From the IMG/VR virus record IMGVR_UViG_3300025141_000807, positions 1 to 22,946 of that record: DNA of 22,946 nucleotides; one strand, given 5' to 3'. This DNA is from a virus. Below are positions 3,201 to 19,514 of this stretch, piece after piece; position 1 is the first letter of the stretch; every line of letters begins with the position of its first letter. The translations under genes and the position numbers were made by a program. Below the pieces are notes generated by a model that was not told the origin of the DNA, made no database searches, and worked only from the letters and a program-made list of their open reading frames with translations.

Positions 3201-4902
3201 TTGAAGATTGCTTAAGCTGGTTTTGGAGTTGGCTTTCTGAAAAGTTTTTATAAGGACGGCTCATTTCCTGTATCTCTTCAAGACGTGTGGGGATGTTTGG
3301 GTCTGTTCCCTTGAAAGGTATGCGCTCTGTGACTGTGCCAGCCCTTCTAATTAATTGTTGTTCCTTGGTTCTTAAAAGACCTTTTATTGCTCCTGTGCTC
3401 TTTGTATCAGCAAGCCTAAAGATGACTGGGTAGATGTCATCGCTATTTTGAAGGTATGCACTCAACTCTTTGCTTGCATCCTTACTAAGCTTTTGGTGAG
3501 GCGTAAGGTCAAAGAGACCCCTGATCACTTTTTCCGCCTCTCTCTTTGCAACAACCTTGGGGTTTGCATTTTTTCGTAAAATGTTTCGTACAACACCCTT
3601 AAAGAGATCGAGGTCATCCTTTGACTTTTTAACATTGGAAAAAGGAACATCTTTTTGGATTGTTGTTGTTATAGGGCGATCAATATTTTTTCGTAAAAAC
3701 TTTTCCTCTTGTCGTAATGAAAGCTCTGTGTGAATATCTGTAACCTCATCAAGGTTTTGGGAAAGTTTTTGTGCAACCTCGTCTCCAGCCTTTTTTGCCT
3801 GCGCGTCTTTAACAATGCTCGCACTGTTCCGAATAATCTCATCTACACCCTCTCTCACTTCTTTTGTACCCCCGTGTGTGACTAGTCGTTGTGCCACTCT
3901 GTCCATAACCTCTACATTTGATGCGCTGGCAAGTTTCGCAGCATCACCAGCTTTTGCGCTCTTCCCTAGTATTTTCAAGAGAGGTTTTGTTATCCCTGCT
4001 GCACCCAATAATCCTATCTTTGCGCCTGGTCCTATAACAGGGACAAGGTCGAGGGCTGTACCTACAGCATCAAGTCGGTCGCCCGCGGTCATATTGTCAA
4101 GATTACGCTCGTGATCAATAAATCGTCGAACTCGTGGAGTGTTGAGTATTTTTTGTTCAATATCACTACCTCGACGATTTATTGATATTTTTCGAAATAA
4201 TTCTGGATTTGTTCTTTGAAATTCTAATATATCCCCAAATGTTGATCGTGCCACTTTACCAAAGCCTCTCCTATGTGCCTGCTTAATCATTTCTGTTCCT
4301 TTAGGAAGTGCTCCAATCGTTGTAATTGATCTTATTGTTTCAGGAAACTTCTCTTCTTTAATAAAATCCAACAATAGCTTGTCTCTCATGGTAAATCTAC
4401 TTTCCCCAAGTATATCTGTTTTTTCTTGAGGGAGACTTTTTACGAGACGCTGTAACCCTTTCATAGCTGAATGTATATCGTTTCCAATTTGTTGGGATAG
4501 CAAGATAGGGAAAGATCGATCACCAACCTCACCACGAAGAATGTCTTGCCTTCTTATTGTTTTATCAATAACAGATTCTCCAACAAATGGGCCAGCTGCT
4601 CTCTTGGCAGAAGCTGAAATGTTTGACCTTGGTGTAGCAGTAAATGCCCTTAACGCCTTAGTGGCACCAGAAGACACCTTACTAGTCACACTTCTTCTAA
4701 GGGCTTCAGACCTACTTTTGACTTTCCTGGTAATAATTTTAGAAGGAGGATCTTTTTTAACAACATCTACAACCTTTCTTGTTGTTTTTTGGATACTTTT
4801 TGGCACTCTTCTTTTCACCTCACGACGAATAACTTTGCCAGCTAAAGGGGCAACAGTCCTTTTAAGAAACCTTCCAAACTTTTTAATCCTCTCAAATGCC
4901 AT
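208..4902 (-). CDS. Giant internal virion / DNA-ejection protein with LPD38-like region
   Basis: A 1564-residue protein, the largest here. The first ~100 residues are very basic (MAFERIKKFGRFLKRTVAPL onward), suiting packaged DNA. Around residues 275-317 lies a glycine/hydrophobic stretch (LDLVPVIGPGAKIGLLGAAG) that could insert in a membrane. Around residues 950-1160 the sequence (FGAIAYNTGFNAVNALIADM, later LFPFYNAATQG) resembles, from memory, the large polyvalent protein-associated domain LPD38 seen in giant phage proteins. The rest is charged and helical. Gene order (last of the tail block, after nozzle, fiber and a coiled-coil protein) matches T7 gp16-type or other podovirus ejection proteins. 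The inferred role is delivery with the genome and building or assisting a channel across the envelope. No lytic transglycosylase or polymerase motif was recognised. The start is ATG at 4902 with the leader ACATATAATT and no Shine-Dalgarno. It lies 13 nt after the 482-residue gene. Confidence 0.8.
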   Translation of the reverse strand: MAFERIKKFGRFLKRTVAPLAGKVIRREVKRRVPKSIQKTTRKVVDVVKKDPPSKIITRKVKSRSEALRRSVTSKVSSGATKALRAFTATPRSNISASAKRAAGPFVGESVIDKTIRRQDILRGEVGDRSFPILLSQQIGNDIHSAMKGLQRLVKSLPQEKTDILGESRFTMRDKLLLDFIKEEKFPETIRSITTIGALPKGTEMIKQAHRRGFGKVARSTFGDILEFQRTNPELFRKISINRRGSDIEQKILNTPRVRRFIDHERNLDNMTAGDRLDAVGTALDLVPVIGPGAKIGLLGAAGITKPLLKILGKSAKAGDAAKLASASNVEVMDRVAQRLVTHGGTKEVREGVDEIIRNSASIVKDAQAKKAGDEVAQKLSQNLDEVTDIHTELSLRQEEKFLRKNIDRPITTTIQKDVPFSNVKKSKDDLDLFKGVVRNILRKNANPKVVAKREAEKVIRGLFDLTPHQKLSKDASKELSAYLQNSDDIYPVIFRLADTKSTGAIKGLLRTKEQQLIRRAGTVTERIPFKGTDPNIPTRLEEIQEMSRPYKNFSESQLQNQLKQSSRKAAGLAVEAEVLADAGGKVDLDNGEKVAKFIDEFTYKKEPETIGESGRKAVNAIKKTGQAIERTQINQFNALDSAQKQLLKAHGKTRDGLKLSEVANLFSGTQGKITSKLMDFDKIITKVITKTGGSLEQFSQYVSMRRVLSRLSDNPLQKQFAGKTIKDMVDGIAHIKLGVGDEVAEIFEQAADEYNVFFRQFIEEMEAVGRLSTKQADIIRNSNDFYAPFNIIIQDDLVKNGVLQGIDLSRSIDDVMRLASKSITPKAASEIQSIKGIKMLGKGKDSVVMLEDVIEAAHKKIPRLIEEIERQRFTRRIIGDLEKADTAEAFIKKIGPKKGDQALRKPVKGMEQVFIYEDGKKVFYHVDKGISDALKGLNLEQASTIVRLAGKTSIPMKFGAIAYNTGFNAVNALIADMGRNLFLNKAFGINPLRVTTNYLSAFFESIGYTVFGSRSKMMQDFMESGAFTGAYSRTLAKELLKPIYNTSKAGALKKFVFGVLRLPTDIGGSLEITGKLAGFREAEAFLKRQQKLVNKGAKNVKNVVTREELMSEVRKVAGSPDFWARGTWTPEMNALFPFYNAATQGTVTDVSRLFVHPFKGTRKERIASAKAWAKLSVPMTGVAAITAYNLRPGNREHFEQVSQWERDSYIMIPKFALYGKDDDRSYGVNEDGKKFAEYWKVQKRDGLKLVFNLVESGVTYFHDRDPHEFARAMDQFLTDALPVNIESKEGHGTLDPGGRLKSLASSTAPIIKAPIEIATGIDLFRGRPIEPQSIEGEPTSKVSSDRIFREKTPEIFKKFGQTSIAKRLGISPLEAEQFASSATGGLTRRLFGDSRLREGEEQPGLLKRLTTQPIKDRFRRSTFVVDPVEDSRFEQIGEVQESQANIGVDLSRKAKGSLQKIRDLRDAGSPEEGRKVYDALPEKERKKVDTIIARENLERHERAIKSLGVENGGRTISIIKIINSENMTEGEAVEFIRNLKQKKIITEDVNDQLRRHRDKITSF

Positions 4903-12367: not shown

Positions 12368-12724
12368 TTATGAGTGCATCTTTGTAATGTGTAGCTTGAG
12401 TCCCTGTTCTGTTTTAAACTCCTTTTCACATTCCTCGCAACTGTTACTTTTTACTTCCTCTTTCTTCTCTTCCTTTACCTCTTCTGCTGGTTCTTCTTTC
12501 ACCTCTTCTTTGCTTTCTAGGTATTGGATGACTTCTGCACGTGCCTTCTCCAGCTTCTCCAGGTGCTCTTCTGCTGCTTGTCGGTTTCCAAACACTCGGC
12601 TTGATATCCAGACCTCTTCTTTCTTTGTGATTTCATTCTCCACACGGTTAAGAGTGTCGGGAACTTCGTACTTCAACACCTCTGTGTTCTGAATTGTTGC
12701 TCTTCTTTCTACAATCTTTGACAT
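12368..12724 (-). CDS. Small protein with C-terminal C2H2 zinc finger
   Basis: 118 residues with three parts. Residues 1-65 are helical and charged. Residues 72-93 are a Glu/Lys repeat (KEEVKEEPAEEVKEEKKEEV). Residues 96-117 match a classical C2H2 finger: C96-x2-C99-x12-H112-x4-H117, with Phe at 103 and Leu at 109 in the expected core positions. Such fingers bind DNA, RNA or protein around one zinc ion. The gene lies inside the capsid/fiber block, between small structural genes, and not in the early region, which is unusual for a regulator. It could be a virion-packaged DNA binder or a late regulator. No family name is offered. The leader is GCAATAATTAAAAAGACAT-ATG. Confidence 0.7.
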   Translation of the reverse strand: MSKIVERRATIQNTEVLKYEVPDTLNRVENEITKKEEVWISSRVFGNRQAAEEHLEKLEKARAEVIQYLESKEEVKEEPAEEVKEEKKEEVKSNSCEECEKEFKTEQGLKLHITKMHS

Positions 12725-12744: not shown

Positions 12745-12990
12745 TTAGCGTAAATTCTGGTTATGGACACGTTGTGCTTGCGCACTTGTTATCTCTCCCT
12801 TTTGAACAAGTTCGTGAAGTGACTCCTTCATAGCTGACTTAATCTTCTTTGTTTTCTCATCTTCCTGCTCTTTGCGTATGCGACGCTTGGCGTTGTCAGC
12901 AATACGCTTCGCTGTCTTAGAGTCACAAAGCTCATCCTTGAGGAAGGCTCTTCGTAGTTCTTCTTTTGTCATGTCATGCATCATGTTCAT
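12745..12990 (-). CDS. Unknown small helical protein
   Basis: 81 residues from the ATG at 12990. The frame also allows a GTG at 12993 and ATGs at 12984, 12981 and 12972; the choice is uncertain because none has a Shine-Dalgarno, and only the 12984 ATG has the A at -3 that is usual here. The product is Lys/Glu-rich and helical (KEELRRAFLKDELCDSKTAK, then AKRRIRKEQEDEKTKKIKSA). No domain is recognised. It lies between the capsid accessory gene and the zinc-finger gene. A short CCCCT-ATAA-AGGGG hairpin just upstream (13003-13016) has no U-tract. An assembly chaperone or nucleic-acid binder are both possible. Confidence 0.6.
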   Translation of the reverse strand: MNMMHDMTKEELRRAFLKDELCDSKTAKRIADNAKRRIRKEQEDEKTKKIKSAMKESLHELVQKGEITSAQAQRVHNQNLR

Positions 12991-13028
12991 CACTTATCCC
13001 TACCCCTATAAAGGGGCAAGGGAAGTGA

Positions 13029-13721
13029 TTAACCGAGATTGAGAGTTATCACAGCCATTGTGTCTGCATTTGCATTTCCTACAAGTGCACTTCCAAATGG
13101 TCGCGCTGAACTCGCATCTTCAGTTGTAGCAGCTTTACATGTTCCTGCTGTGTCATCACCTGGGATAACAACATCATTCGCTGTAAGTGCTGCGCCTGCA
13201 AGAACTGCTGCAGTTCCTGAGATTTGTCGCCAGAAGTATGAACCGCTTGCTACATCAACTGGTGCTACACCAGTAACAATTTGAGTCTTTGTAGTTACAG
13301 CAGCTTTCTTCACGCTGTCTGGGTGGAAGAGTGAGATGTCTGAGTCTGAAACAGATAGTGCTGTTCCAAGTGCTCGATCAAGAGTAAGGGTTGTTGTGTC
13401 GTTAGAAACAACAGTTCGCATTTGCCCTTCTCCAGTTCCGTCGTCGACATAAACATAGAATCCTTCGAATTGATTCACGGTCCAAGTAGCAGTAACGCCA
13501 CCTGTCTCGATCTTTGTTTTGTCTGCGCTTGAGGAAACTGTTTCTTCTTGGATCACTGCAGTTTGAATGAGAACTTCTCCTTCAGAAATTGCAGCTGATG
13601 CCTTTGAGTAAACATACTTGTTTCCGAACTGGTCTTCAGCAACTTGACCAAGCACCGCGTTAGCAGCTGTGTCGTCTTCGTAGAAGCTCTGGTCAACTGC
13701 GATTGCTCGTGCTTTTGCCAT
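13029..13721 (-). CDS. Probable capsid decoration / head accessory protein
   Basis: 230 residues encoded directly after the major capsid gene (22-nt gap), the usual place for a decoration protein. The sequence is beta-rich and Ala/Thr/Val-heavy. It contains a GEVLIQTAVIQEETVSSSAD region, a middle domain (FEGFYVYVDDGTGEGQMRTV), and a C-terminal part (SGSYFWRQISGTAAVLAGAA through PFGSALVGNANADTMAVITL) resembling head-decoration proteins, in which a small hydrophobic beta barrel sits on capsid axes. No catalytic motif. The exact family is not named. The leader is TAATTAAAAGACT-ATG, a good example of the A-rich start context used here. Confidence 0.68.
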   Translation of the reverse strand: MAKARAIAVDQSFYEDDTAANAVLGQVAEDQFGNKYVYSKASAAISEGEVLIQTAVIQEETVSSSADKTKIETGGVTATWTVNQFEGFYVYVDDGTGEGQMRTVVSNDTTTLTLDRALGTALSVSDSDISLFHPDSVKKAAVTTKTQIVTGVAPVDVASGSYFWRQISGTAAVLAGAALTANDVVIPGDDTAGTCKAATTEDASSARPFGSALVGNANADTMAVITLNLG

Positions 13722-13743: not shown

Positions 13744-14697
13744 TTATGCGGTAACTTGTGTGAGTTTTCCAAGATATCGACAGTTGTTTGCAGTAAGATT
13801 TCCCATCCATAGGATTTGAGCAATCTTTGCATCCTGGTTGTCTGGTCGTTGGAAGTCGGTCACGGTGAAGTTTGCATCTTTGTGATATCGAAGCTTCAAG
13901 TGTTCTGTGTTCAAGAAGTACATTACTCCTGAAGTACACTGTTCGTCGAACATCACGTCTGCCCCTCGGAACTTCATTGTTACAAATCCTGCGTCTGCAA
14001 GTTCTGTGTTTGAAACTCCAAATCGTTGGTTTGCTTGCATGAGAGCTTCGTACTTGTCATAGACTGTTGAAGTCGTAATGATCAAGTCTGGTCCCATTTT
14101 TCCACCACGGCTACACTGTGTGTATTTTGTTGCCATTGCAGAGATAGTAAGCGCACCACCTTGTGCTGTTTCGTTTGACTGCCAGAATTCGTTTCCTGCA
14201 GTTGCACGGTTGATATTTCCGTATGTTCCAGCTGAGTCAACCATGATTTCAAGTCCGTCAATGTCCTTACCTGAGTTTCCTGTTCCGTCTCCGAAAAGAC
14301 CAGAAACAATGTCTTCAGAAAGGCTCATTTCTGCTTCCTTCACTTTTCCAAGTAGAAGGTTAACTGCTGCAGAGTCTCCCATGTTGATTCGCTCTTCACG
14401 TCCAGAGATAACGATTGGTGCCGCGTATTGGGTCCAGTCGAATTCTGCTGCTGTGAATGCGCTTGTTGGAGTTGTGTCAAGAACATCATAACCGCTGTAC
14501 GATCCAGCGTTTGTGTTTTTCTTGTACATCAATGGTTCCAAAATCTTTGTTCCGCCATCAACTGGTGTATACGCCTTGTCCTTCAATGTTCGAAGAAGAA
14601 GATGTGAGTTGAAAACGGAGTCTGCAAATTCTGGTCCAACAAACTTTTCAACAGTGGAGGCAAGCACGTTTGTGTTGTAGTTCGTGTTTCCTGCCAT
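13744..14697 (-). CDS. Major capsid protein (HK97 fold)
   Basis: 317 residues. It carries the motif series I associate with a well-populated phage major capsid family: VDGGTKILEPLMY at ~46-58, YSGYD at 67-71, AAEFDW at 83-88, ISGREE at 97-102 followed by NMGDSAAVNLL, then GDGTGNSGKDIDGLEIMV, and a C-terminal GADVMFDEQCTSGVMYFLNT. The length is usual for the family. There is no long N-terminal delta domain, in keeping with a separate scaffold gene immediately upstream. The protein forms the icosahedral shell. Order portal-scaffold-capsid is textbook for podoviruses. The leader CTAATCCAAAACA-ATG has no Shine-Dalgarno, surprising for what should be the most highly translated gene. Confidence 0.88.
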   Translation of the reverse strand: MAGNTNYNTNVLASTVEKFVGPEFADSVFNSHLLLRTLKDKAYTPVDGGTKILEPLMYKKNTNAGSYSGYDVLDTTPTSAFTAAEFDWTQYAAPIVISGREERINMGDSAAVNLLLGKVKEAEMSLSEDIVSGLFGDGTGNSGKDIDGLEIMVDSAGTYGNINRATAGNEFWQSNETAQGGALTISAMATKYTQCSRGGKMGPDLIITTSTVYDKYEALMQANQRFGVSNTELADAGFVTMKFRGADVMFDEQCTSGVMYFLNTEHLKLRYHKDANFTVTDFQRPDNQDAKIAQILWMGNLTANNCRYLGKLTQVTA

Positions 14698-14711: not shown

Positions 14712-15419
14712 TTATTGTTGGTGCTTCTCTTGCGCTTGTTGGTATGCGGCCATCATTTTATCAAATGAACTTCCTGTAGAAGGAGTCACTTGTTGTGATG
14801 GTGCTCCATTTGGCGCAGGAGTTGAAGCCGTTCGCTTTCCCTCTAATGATGCTAACGCTTCTTGTTTTCCCTCTTCTTTTGCGTTGCTGCTCATCGCATC
14901 AAATGCAACGGCTTTATACGCAATTTCGTAGGGAACACTGTGCTGAACTTCCTCTGGTAGCTGATCATAGAGATTGGCCATTTTCTCTCTATGTTTATCA
15001 ACGTTTTCTTGCCCGTATTCCTGGGCGAGGTTAGAGAGTTCACGCTGCTGTTCGAGTTCATAGAGAGCTTTCTTTGCCTCTTGCTCTGTTTCCTGCAACG
15101 ATTGTTGCTGCTTGGCAATAGTCACTTCTTGCTCTGACATTCCCTCGAACTGCGACGCCTCTTGGTTTTGTTGAAACGCATTTTGCATCGTCTCCATAAA
15201 ACCTTTGTACTGGTCAAGCTCTTTACGTGCCTGTCCAAGTTCGTTGCCTTGATCACCGAGCTTTTTCTTGAAGTGCTCGATTGTCTCAACGTCAACGGAG
15301 GGTGTGGCGTCTTGTGCCTGTTCTTCCTGTGGCACTTCAGGTGCTTGCTGCTCATTCACAGCAGGTGCTTCAACAGTCTGCTCATTCACAGCTGTTGTTG
15401 ATGGTTCTTCCATAAACAT
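14712..15419 (-). CDS. Capsid scaffolding protein
   Basis: 235 residues from the ATG at 15419; a second in-frame ATG lies at 15413 and a GTG at 15437. I prefer 15419 because it has A at -3 and the GTG lies within the terminator-like hairpin. The protein is very rich in Glu and Gln with long helical, coiled-coil stretches (IEHFKKKLGDQGNELGQARK and EQQRELSNLAQEYGQENVDK) and a short C-terminal helix (SSFDKMMAAYQQAQEKHQQ) suitable for capsid binding. It lies between portal and major capsid genes. Scaffolds guide procapsid assembly and then leave. No protease domain is visible, so it is likely released rather than self-cleaved. Confidence 0.8.
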   Translation of the reverse strand: MFMEEPSTTAVNEQTVEAPAVNEQQAPEVPQEEQAQDATPSVDVETIEHFKKKLGDQGNELGQARKELDQYKGFMETMQNAFQQNQEASQFEGMSEQEVTIAKQQQSLQETEQEAKKALYELEQQRELSNLAQEYGQENVDKHREKMANLYDQLPEEVQHSVPYEIAYKAVAFDAMSSNAKEEGKQEALASLEGKRTASTPAPNGAPSQQVTPSTGSSFDKMMAAYQQAQEKHQQ

Positions 15420-15421
15420 GG

Positions 15422-15490
15422 TTATTGAAAAACACACCGCTTATTCACGGTGTGTCTTGTCATCTGTGTTGCTAAAGGAGGAAGTTGCAT
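15422..15490 (-). CDS. Possible 22-codon leader ORF before scaffold
   Basis: The minus strand has an ATG at 15490 opening a 22-residue frame (MQLPPLATQMTRHTVNKRCV then FQ) that stops 2 nt before the scaffold ATG. The terminator-like hairpin at 15428-15457 lies inside its second half. If translated, ribosomes would disrupt that hairpin, as in attenuation leaders. The ATG follows GAGGACAA, a weak Shine-Dalgarno-like string at short spacing. Short frames arise by chance, and there is no run of one amino acid pointing to a regulated codon. This entry is speculative. Confidence 0.25.
   Translation of the reverse strand: MQLPPLATQMTRHTVNKRCVFQ
15428..15457 (-). terminator. Intrinsic-terminator-like hairpin between portal and scaffold
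   Basis: On the minus strand the stem ACACACCG / CGGTGTGT (8 bp, extendable by G-U and A-U pairs) encloses an 8-nt loop TGAATAAG and is followed by TTTTTC. This meets the form of a rho-independent terminator, yet it sits about 10 nt before the scaffold start inside an apparently continuous late operon. It may be a partial terminator that sets the ratio of portal to scaffold/capsid, or an attenuator. No clear promoter follows it. Confidence 0.6.
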
Positions 15491-15541
15491 TTGTCCTCAA
15501 CAACACGGACGACAAAAGACGCCGTGAATTGTTGCAACTTC
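15481..15541 (-). other. Large imperfect hairpin in the portal-scaffold gap
   Basis: A 61-nt inverted-repeat element. The outer arms are GAAGTTGCA and TGCAACTTC (9 bp). Nested inside, CAACAA + CACGG pairs with CCGTG + TTGTTG, giving an 11-bp stem interrupted by a 2-nt bulge and closed by a 13-nt loop. Outer and inner stems share two bases, so they may be alternatives or stack with an asymmetric bulge. It immediately precedes the terminator-like hairpin. Possible roles are an RNase III-type processing site, an antiterminator or an mRNA stabiliser. Confidence 0.55.
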
Positions 15542-15556
15542 TCTTCACTTAGAGAA

Positions 15557-17527
15557 CTATGTGGTTGTTTGATCAGGGAGTACAGATGGTCCTTGCTGAG
15601 AGTCTTCCAGCCTTGGTTGTTGTACACCTGTATTAATTGTATCACGTTTCCCAGATTCACGAAACTCAAGGTTTTGTTCCTCGAATCGTATGTGTCGTTC
15701 AAACATTTCTTGTAGCTCTGGGTTGAGCTCACCACGCTGCTCAAGCATGGAAAGAACCATGACATGATGCTTAATGTGTTCCTCATCAGCTGCATCGTTC
15801 GCAGGAACATCTTGCCCTTGAAGAAGCGCACGCTCATCCTCTAATGCTTCAAACTCTGACTGGGTGACATCGGCACTGTTATCTGGTGGAAGTATCTCAT
15901 CTTTGTTTCCAACATTCTCACTATCAAGATAATTCTCAATCGCTGGACGTATATTGATGCCAGCCTGTGCAAATCCACCAAGAACCTGTAGCTGTTCACG
16001 GGACTGTTTCCGTGCGAGTGGACCAGTCTTTGCAAGCGTGGAGTCTGTTTCAACGTTCGCCATGTAATTCCCTGCAATCTCTTGCTTGGTAAATTTCACA
16101 AAGTTTACGTCGCTACCAACAATTGGTATTAACATTTCTCTGTCTGCAAACTGCTGAAGCATTTCAATAATTTTCTTTCCAACAAAGTTGAAGATCTTTT
16201 CTGCAATCTCTTGCTTCTGGCTTGCACGCACATCTGTACCACGTGACACCTCGGCAATCTCTGTAGCACTTCGTTTGCTGTCTGGGTTGAATCCTAAACG
16301 GTAGTCGTTGATTCCTGTGATTTGGGTAATATCTTCATTGACCATTTGTTCAAATCGGTAATTGTCTGACGGTAGCGGGCTTGATTGGAGGTAGTCAACA
16401 GCACCACGCAGACCAGCACCTGTATCCTTTACGGGGATGATTGCCTTATCGAGACCGCTCTTTATTGCCTCGATTCCTTTCTTCCCAACAGCTGATTCAT
16501 TCACTAGTACTTTGATATGGGAACGCTTGAGGTGGTTCAGCATGTACGCACGGCTTCGATTGAGTTCATCCTGGTGTGGTCGGATGAGGTCAACCTCTGT
16601 AATCGGCATTGACTCTCCTGGAACCTTGTAATCACCGAGAATAATAAACGGGAATCCTTTGCCGCTGTAAATCTGACGTGGTTTTTCCACAAACTTGTCC
16701 CGTATTCCTTCCACAAGTATCGCTCGTGATGCTCTGTCTTCGTCATCAAGGAACCAGTGAAACAGCAACGCAACACGCTTGTTGTGTGGGTTGGAGTTTA
16801 CCTCTGGCTTCTTGGCATCCATGTTTCCTGGGAAGTGTACAGCTGCACCTGAAACGTTCATCTTCTCTAGTTCTGGGTACATCTTCTTCGCCTTCTCTAG
16901 GGGCATTACCACTCGAAACGTTGCATGTCGAATCTTTGACAGCTTCCTTGCCTCGGAGTCAATAAAAATATCATCTGGGTCTATGGACTCAATACTGATA
17001 CTGTCTTTTAAAATCCTTGTTGGCTCTTCGTCTTGCGGTGGGATAATCCCTTCAGCTTCCAGCACCTTCTCAACATCATCTCGCTCTTGGAACTTCTTAT
17101 TCTTTTCTTCCAGAAAGTTCCACTTCACCATGACACACCCGTAAGGACGAACCAACAAGTCGGTCACCATATCCTTCACTTCTTCTTTCACCTCTTGCTC
17201 ACGGATAATATATTCAAGTGTTTTCTCCATCGTGGTCACAACGCTTTCACCACCTTTGATTTGTGCTGCCTTCGAATCTTCATCTAGTGGGTACACGTTC
17301 CAGCGTGGGTCTTTAAAAACAGAAGACTGCACAATGGTTTGTACAATCGGTAATGCTTTATTTACGGTTAGTCCTGGTGCTGAGTTCGCACTCCTTCCAA
17401 GTAGGCTTGAGTCTTCGCCCTTGAATGCTTTGATGTTTTCTTTGGAACGCCCTTCGTACTTCTGCTTGTACAGTTTTTTTGCGGCGTCAATGTCTGCAAT
17501 AATTTTCTGAAGCTGAATATTTGCCAT
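15557..17527 (-). CDS. Portal protein (P22 gp1-like)
   Basis: 656 residues, in the usual size range for P22-type portals. Early features include a helical start, NSAPGLTVNKALPIVQTIVQ, and VTDLLVRPYGCVMVKWNFLE, the beta-rich region that precedes the clip. The diagnostic stretch SATEIAEVSRGTDVRASQKQ lies around residues 417-436 and corresponds to the conserved TATE-like stem/crown motif of these portals. The last ~100 residues are acidic and helical (EEHIKHHVMVLSMLEQRGEL to LPDQTTT), compatible with a C-terminal barrel. Twelve copies form the DNA channel that TerL docks on for packaging and the adaptor binds afterward. It is encoded directly downstream of TerL. It ends with TAG, unlike most neighbours. 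The leader is TGCTATATAAATATC-ATG. Confidence 0.85.
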   Translation of the reverse strand: MANIQLQKIIADIDAAKKLYKQKYEGRSKENIKAFKGEDSSLLGRSANSAPGLTVNKALPIVQTIVQSSVFKDPRWNVYPLDEDSKAAQIKGGESVVTTMEKTLEYIIREQEVKEEVKDMVTDLLVRPYGCVMVKWNFLEEKNKKFQERDDVEKVLEAEGIIPPQDEEPTRILKDSISIESIDPDDIFIDSEARKLSKIRHATFRVVMPLEKAKKMYPELEKMNVSGAAVHFPGNMDAKKPEVNSNPHNKRVALLFHWFLDDEDRASRAILVEGIRDKFVEKPRQIYSGKGFPFIILGDYKVPGESMPITEVDLIRPHQDELNRSRAYMLNHLKRSHIKVLVNESAVGKKGIEAIKSGLDKAIIPVKDTGAGLRGAVDYLQSSPLPSDNYRFEQMVNEDITQITGINDYRLGFNPDSKRSATEIAEVSRGTDVRASQKQEIAEKIFNFVGKKIIEMLQQFADREMLIPIVGSDVNFVKFTKQEIAGNYMANVETDSTLAKTGPLARKQSREQLQVLGGFAQAGINIRPAIENYLDSENVGNKDEILPPDNSADVTQSEFEALEDERALLQGQDVPANDAADEEHIKHHVMVLSMLEQRGELNPELQEMFERHIRFEEQNLEFRESGKRDTINTGVQQPRLEDSQQGPSVLPDQTTT

Positions 17528-19387: not shown

Positions 19388-19429
19388 AGACTTACGGTAC
19401 AAGAGCGAGACAGTCACGACAAGGGAATA

Positions 19430-19458
19430 AATATATCTATCGCCCTCTTATGTCACAA
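19430..19458 (-). promoter_or_regulatory. Sigma70-like promoter candidate for the late module
   Basis: On the minus strand TTGTGA, a 17-nt spacer and TATATT can be read. The start would be near 19423, giving a leader of ~137 nt to the terS ATG. Other weaker possibilities in the same region are an extended -10 TGCTATAAT on the minus strand (19481-19489) and a plus-strand CTGACT-16-TATAGC (19459-19486) that would lie back to back with this promoter. The sequence alone cannot say which are active. Confidence 0.42.
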
Positions 19459-19492
19459 CTGACTCACCCTAGTTACTGATTATAGCATAATT

Positions 19493-19514
19493 ATTAAACA
19501 AACGCTATGACCAG
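19493..19514 (+). repeat. Duplicated start region, copy 1
   Basis: 22 nt covering the leader and first codons of the gene at 19507 match 21 of 22 with 19790-19811, which covers the start of the next gene. Both read ATTAAACAAAC then G or A, then CTATGACCAG. Confidence 0.7.

Follow-up and report, generated by a model that had tools for sequence, protein, structure and literature searches.

Attenuator-like anatomy in the gap between the portal and scaffold genes of a viral late operon

The window (the whole stretch of DNA analysed, 22,946 bases) is an entire virus record, and its minus strand carries a late operon with terS, terL, portal, scaffold and major capsid protein (MCP) genes in that order (Table 1). 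The scaffold gene had no PHROG or Pfam match. The portal and scaffold genes are separated by 137 nt (15556-15420, minus strand), the largest gap in the operon. A preliminary description of this DNA had given the same gap size, without naming a strand, and called the operon otherwise gapless; the size holds, but the other gaps are mostly of 2-57 nt, with terS and terL overlapping. The portal +1 frame is open across the gap from 15556 to 15472 (minus strand; SSLSEEKLQQFTASFVVRVVEDKCNFLL), and the codon score computed for it points neither way. Elsewhere on the minus strand, a 118-aa protein (12368-12724) has a C-terminal C2H2-zinc-finger-like segment, CEECEKEFKTEQGLKLHITKMH (PF12171, just below the cut-off).

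Table 1. Coordinates of the late genes and of the RNA elements and short frame in the portal-scaffold gap.
Feature	Position	Strand	Basis and remarks
terS	19286-18918	-	assigned by position
terL	18930-17575	-	phrog_2
Portal (P22-like)	15557-17527	-	PF16510 P22_portal, 8e-22; phrog_156, 3.5e-28; stop TAG (15559-15557) just before the gap
Hairpin A, 61-nt, nested; candidate anti-antiterminator	15481-15541	-	-22.1 kcal/mol; MFE fold with the 3' end at 15480-15465
Hairpin B, 87-nt, long imperfect; candidate antiterminator	15443-15529	-	-41.7 kcal/mol
22-codon leader frame	15422-15490	-	MQLPPLATQMTRHTVNKRCVFQ and stop; start context score -8.4
Hairpin T, predicted intrinsic terminator	15432-15455	-	ACACACCGTGAATAAGCGGTGTGT; -14.0 kcal/mol
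U5 tract of T	15428-15432	-	sequence; ends 8 nt before the scaffold ATG
Scaffold	14712-15419	-	assigned by position between portal and MCP
MCP	13744-14697	-	phrog_9953, 4e-73; downstream of the putative gate

The plus-strand fold of the gap, examined first, was dropped, as the operon lies on the other strand. The minus-strand transcript of the gap folds with a z-score of -5.3, and this region has the lowest z among 571 sliding windows of that strand; some other windows come near the same value, and strong structure by itself does not set the gap apart. A stretch at 19401-19510 (minus strand), in the divergent intergenic region that precedes terS, is strongly structured (z -6.5), and a pair of 23-nt inverted repeat arms, 87% complementary and separated by a 27-nt loop, lies at 4114-4186 within a gene of 1564 aa.

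Inside a 22-codon frame at the end of the gap, the preliminary description had noticed a GC-rich stem with a tail of five Us, and a terminator of this kind, hairpin T, is indeed present there with a d'Aubenton-type score d of 15.5-21.8. In our own d'Aubenton-type scan, with its own filters and covering both strands, T is the only site in the window with d of at least 10, and when the gap was dinucleotide-shuffled 1500 times, a single shuffle reached d of at least 15. Its U tract is short, five only. T was not among the sites returned by a separate consensus terminator scan of the window, probably because the stem extension in that scan consumes the Us. T would presumably terminate transcription in the host.

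The 61-nt nested hairpin described earlier (hairpin A) was recovered at about -22 kcal/mol. A stronger third element, hairpin B, had been overlooked and is the most stable fold of the gap. Since the 3' arm of B contains the 5' arm of T, the two are mutually exclusive in full; A, for its part, occupies the 5' arm of B and would leave T free. As expected for two competitors of one strand, the 5' arm of B (CGGCGUCUUUU) is similar to the 3' arm and tail of T (CGGUGUGUUUU). At computed equilibrium, transcripts with 3' ends between 15440 and 15407 form T with a probability of 0-3%, versus 97-100% for the base of B. As the transcript grows, the computed favoured fold is A up to about 15460 and B afterwards, and for most transcript lengths the barrier on the direct path from A to B is at least about 14 kcal/mol (direct-path values only, hence upper bounds), which may let A last until T has been made. 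Either of two defaults would fit these values: A could persist and T form, with termination, or B could form, with readthrough. When the transcript is extended to 15380, T-containing folds are slightly favoured; the polymerase is already past by then.

These sequence statistics and mutually exclusive folds support an attenuator-like anatomy. A, B and T exist as computed, A precedes B, B excludes T, and T, the only good terminator of the window, lies between the upstream genes and the gene that would be controlled. We tentatively propose, at a little short of an even chance, that the gap acts as an attenuator-like leader which controls whether transcription of the terminase and portal genes continues into the scaffold and capsid genes. 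A would be the first to fold behind the advancing RNA polymerase; for as long as A holds, T could form and end transcription some 8 nt short of the scaffold ATG, and if the RNA rearranged into B, the 5' arm of T would be consumed and readthrough would follow. The choice between A and B would presumably be regulated, with pausing of the polymerase, ribosome load or some phage protein (the scaffold, for example) as candidate signals, translation of the 22-codon frame being an unlikely sensor. A phage has to keep scaffold, coat and portal in proportion, and a terminator/antiterminator leader would time or tune that balance transcriptionally, here in a phage whose genes are without Shine-Dalgarno sequences and in which an operator that acts by covering such a sequence may not work. 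It counts against such a gate that damping scaffold and capsid, the products in greatest demand, requires some antitermination signal, and the shortness of the U tract counts against it as well. In the searchable literature, which mostly omits subscription papers, we found no described example at this place, as the preliminary description had also stated.

The main rival, which we consider rather unlikely, is constitutive and involves no switching: the long hairpin would be a site of RNase III-like processing or of mRNA stability, T would be at most a weak partial terminator, and the two together would keep the message for terminase and portal apart from that for scaffold, capsid and decoration. 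Such a site would be well served by a long imperfect duplex of -42 kcal/mol, and a second strong hairpin, without a U tract, occurs at about 12990-13030 (in a window of z -5.8) just after the block, which places a hairpin on either side of the scaffold-capsid-decoration segment. However, a processing hairpin needs no terminator on its 3' arm, yet the sole site in the window with d of at least 10 is found precisely there, and structured windows occur within genes too. The second hairpin (minus strand, UCACUUcCCUUGCCCC/GGGGUAGGGauaAGUGA) lies in the gap that follows the gene at 13029-13721 and overlaps the GTG start of the next frame.

None of the 24 gene starts examined (for example 19507, 14697 and 12310) relies on a Shine-Dalgarno (SD) sequence; what they have in common is TAA near -12, with A at both -6 and -3 and T at -1. 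The signals are near those measured in Flavobacterium johnsoniae, A(-3), A(-6) and A(-12/-13) (PMC6847099), which makes a Bacteroidota host plausible. The scaffold start has a weak context (-5.1 for the ATG at 15419 and -2.4 for that at 15413), with a U tract in place of the TAA(-12) motif.

Nucleotide and single-protein searches found no near relatives in usable form, and protein-alignment scans yielded about 250 loci, most of them at 37-51% capsid identity. The nearest relatives found, L171 and L170, have about 50% capsid identity; the portal-scaffold gap of L171 is 20 nt long and lacks the structure of the window, and L170 has no fold comparable to that of the window's gap. Gene starts in L171 look similar to those of the window (SD-less, with TAA/A signals). 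The comparison with related phages that the preliminary description had called for covered these two at about 50% capsid identity, and the stems were not seen in them; conservation of the stems would support an attenuator without being strictly part of its definition. This apparent lack of conservation in the nearest relatives found counts against a gate, as does the position of the relatives' intrinsic terminators, which cluster just after the capsid gene (about 750-2000 nt past its start, where the window has none) and not before the scaffold gene. A terminator-like site does lie between the portal and scaffold genes of one relative, L027.

Of the 201 loci that have a scaffold gene, 154 carry a conserved short hairpin between portal and scaffold, RGAR-CAA-CY-N-RG-A-YUCY, which usually lies 1-20 nt ahead of the scaffold start and often beside an SD (for example L184:2372-2406 and L013:4010-4046, from the portal-scaffold gaps of L010-L268). 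Across its 49 distinct sequences 92% of cells pair, and two-sided changes number 35 compared to 12.3 in shuffles, with none of 500 shuffles reaching 35. RNAalifold recovers the structure unprompted, and the distinct elements in leaders number 125, compared with 13 matches to the pattern in other parts of the loci. The hairpin is absent from Rfam 15. It is better supported than the gate of the window and, as an RNA element, both concrete and testable; we take it as a candidate scaffold operator. The window was tried as a member of this family and rejected: the covariance model (R1) has no match in the gap, and its best match, of 12.2 bits, is elsewhere in the window.

The leader of the window could also be a translational operator, acting on scaffold initiation with one conformer exposing and the other hiding the start region, as in the autoregulated P22 scaffold gene. 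The region from -12 to -1 is indeed 0.88 unpaired in T-containing folds and 0.30 in B folds, and both the usual closeness of the relatives' hairpin to the scaffold start and the autoregulation recorded for P22 (Wyckoff and Casjens 1985, as referenced in PMC5744158) fit the idea. We nevertheless consider it quite unlikely, as the window is without the relatives' hairpin, B leaves the AUG itself less paired than T does, so that the direction of control is ambiguous, and a translational operator has no need for a terminator. Less probable still is chance or decay, with an inverted repeat left by a past rearrangement and a fortuitous terminator: the structure comes from one sequence, and no close relative was found with it, but the fold and terminator statistics and the exact placement before the scaffold and capsid genes make this very unlikely.

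The preliminary description had also proposed that ribosomes on the 22-codon frame melt T. The frame is there and stops, as stated, 2 nt before the scaffold ATG at 15419, and a frame ending so near that ATG arises in 1.2-1.6% of dinucleotide shuffles (a post hoc test). The context of its ATG scores -8.4 versus -5 to +15 for the late genes, and 37% of all minus-strand ATGs score at least as high, so it is like a random ATG. The codon score of the frame, 0.07, points neither way, and MQLPPLATQMTRHTVNKRCVFQ contains no regulatory codon run, no single-amino-acid run and no stall motif, with one Pro-Pro only. The frame is probably not a translated peptide, and the proposed melting finds no support in this start context, in the codons or in the nearest relatives, which lack a comparable structure. 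Attenuation by a leader peptide, with ribosomes on the frame deciding termination, is highly improbable despite the placement of its stop, given the random-like ATG, the reliance of no gene here on an SD, the lack of a run of one amino acid, and the prospect that any ribosome translating it would disrupt B and T alike and therefore leave no two clear outcomes.

A broader view, which we put forward as unlikely, is that the portal-scaffold junction in a wide podovirus-like group might be a general point of RNA control over capsid production, served in most members by a conserved hairpin operator by the scaffold start and in the SD-less lineage of the window by a terminator/antiterminator switch.

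The proposed attenuator-like leader resembles trp-type leaders, ribosomal-protein leaders and riboswitch platforms in having an early hairpin, a stronger alternative hairpin and a strand-sharing terminator upstream of the controlled gene. It differs from these known leaders in its place, between the portal and scaffold genes of a phage late operon, and in having no ligand, no supported leader peptide and no recognised aptamer: Rfam riboswitch and leader families gave no match at gathering score in the window, and the only matches, to microRNAs, were spurious and far below the cut-off. With the conserved hairpin of the relatives (RGAR-CAA-CY...RG-A-YUCY) it has the intergenic position in common, whereas sequence and fold differ. 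P22 is like the window in its gene order, terminase-portal-scaffold-coat, in its type of portal and in control at the scaffold gene, which is putative in the window. Control in P22 is a post-transcriptional repression by free scaffold, in contrast to the terminator-type layout, with no known repressor, of the window. T7, like the window, has an intrinsic terminator within its late operon, and the output-shaping role of such a terminator is putative in the window; in T7 and many relatives, however, the terminator lies after the capsid gene, whereas in the window it lies before.
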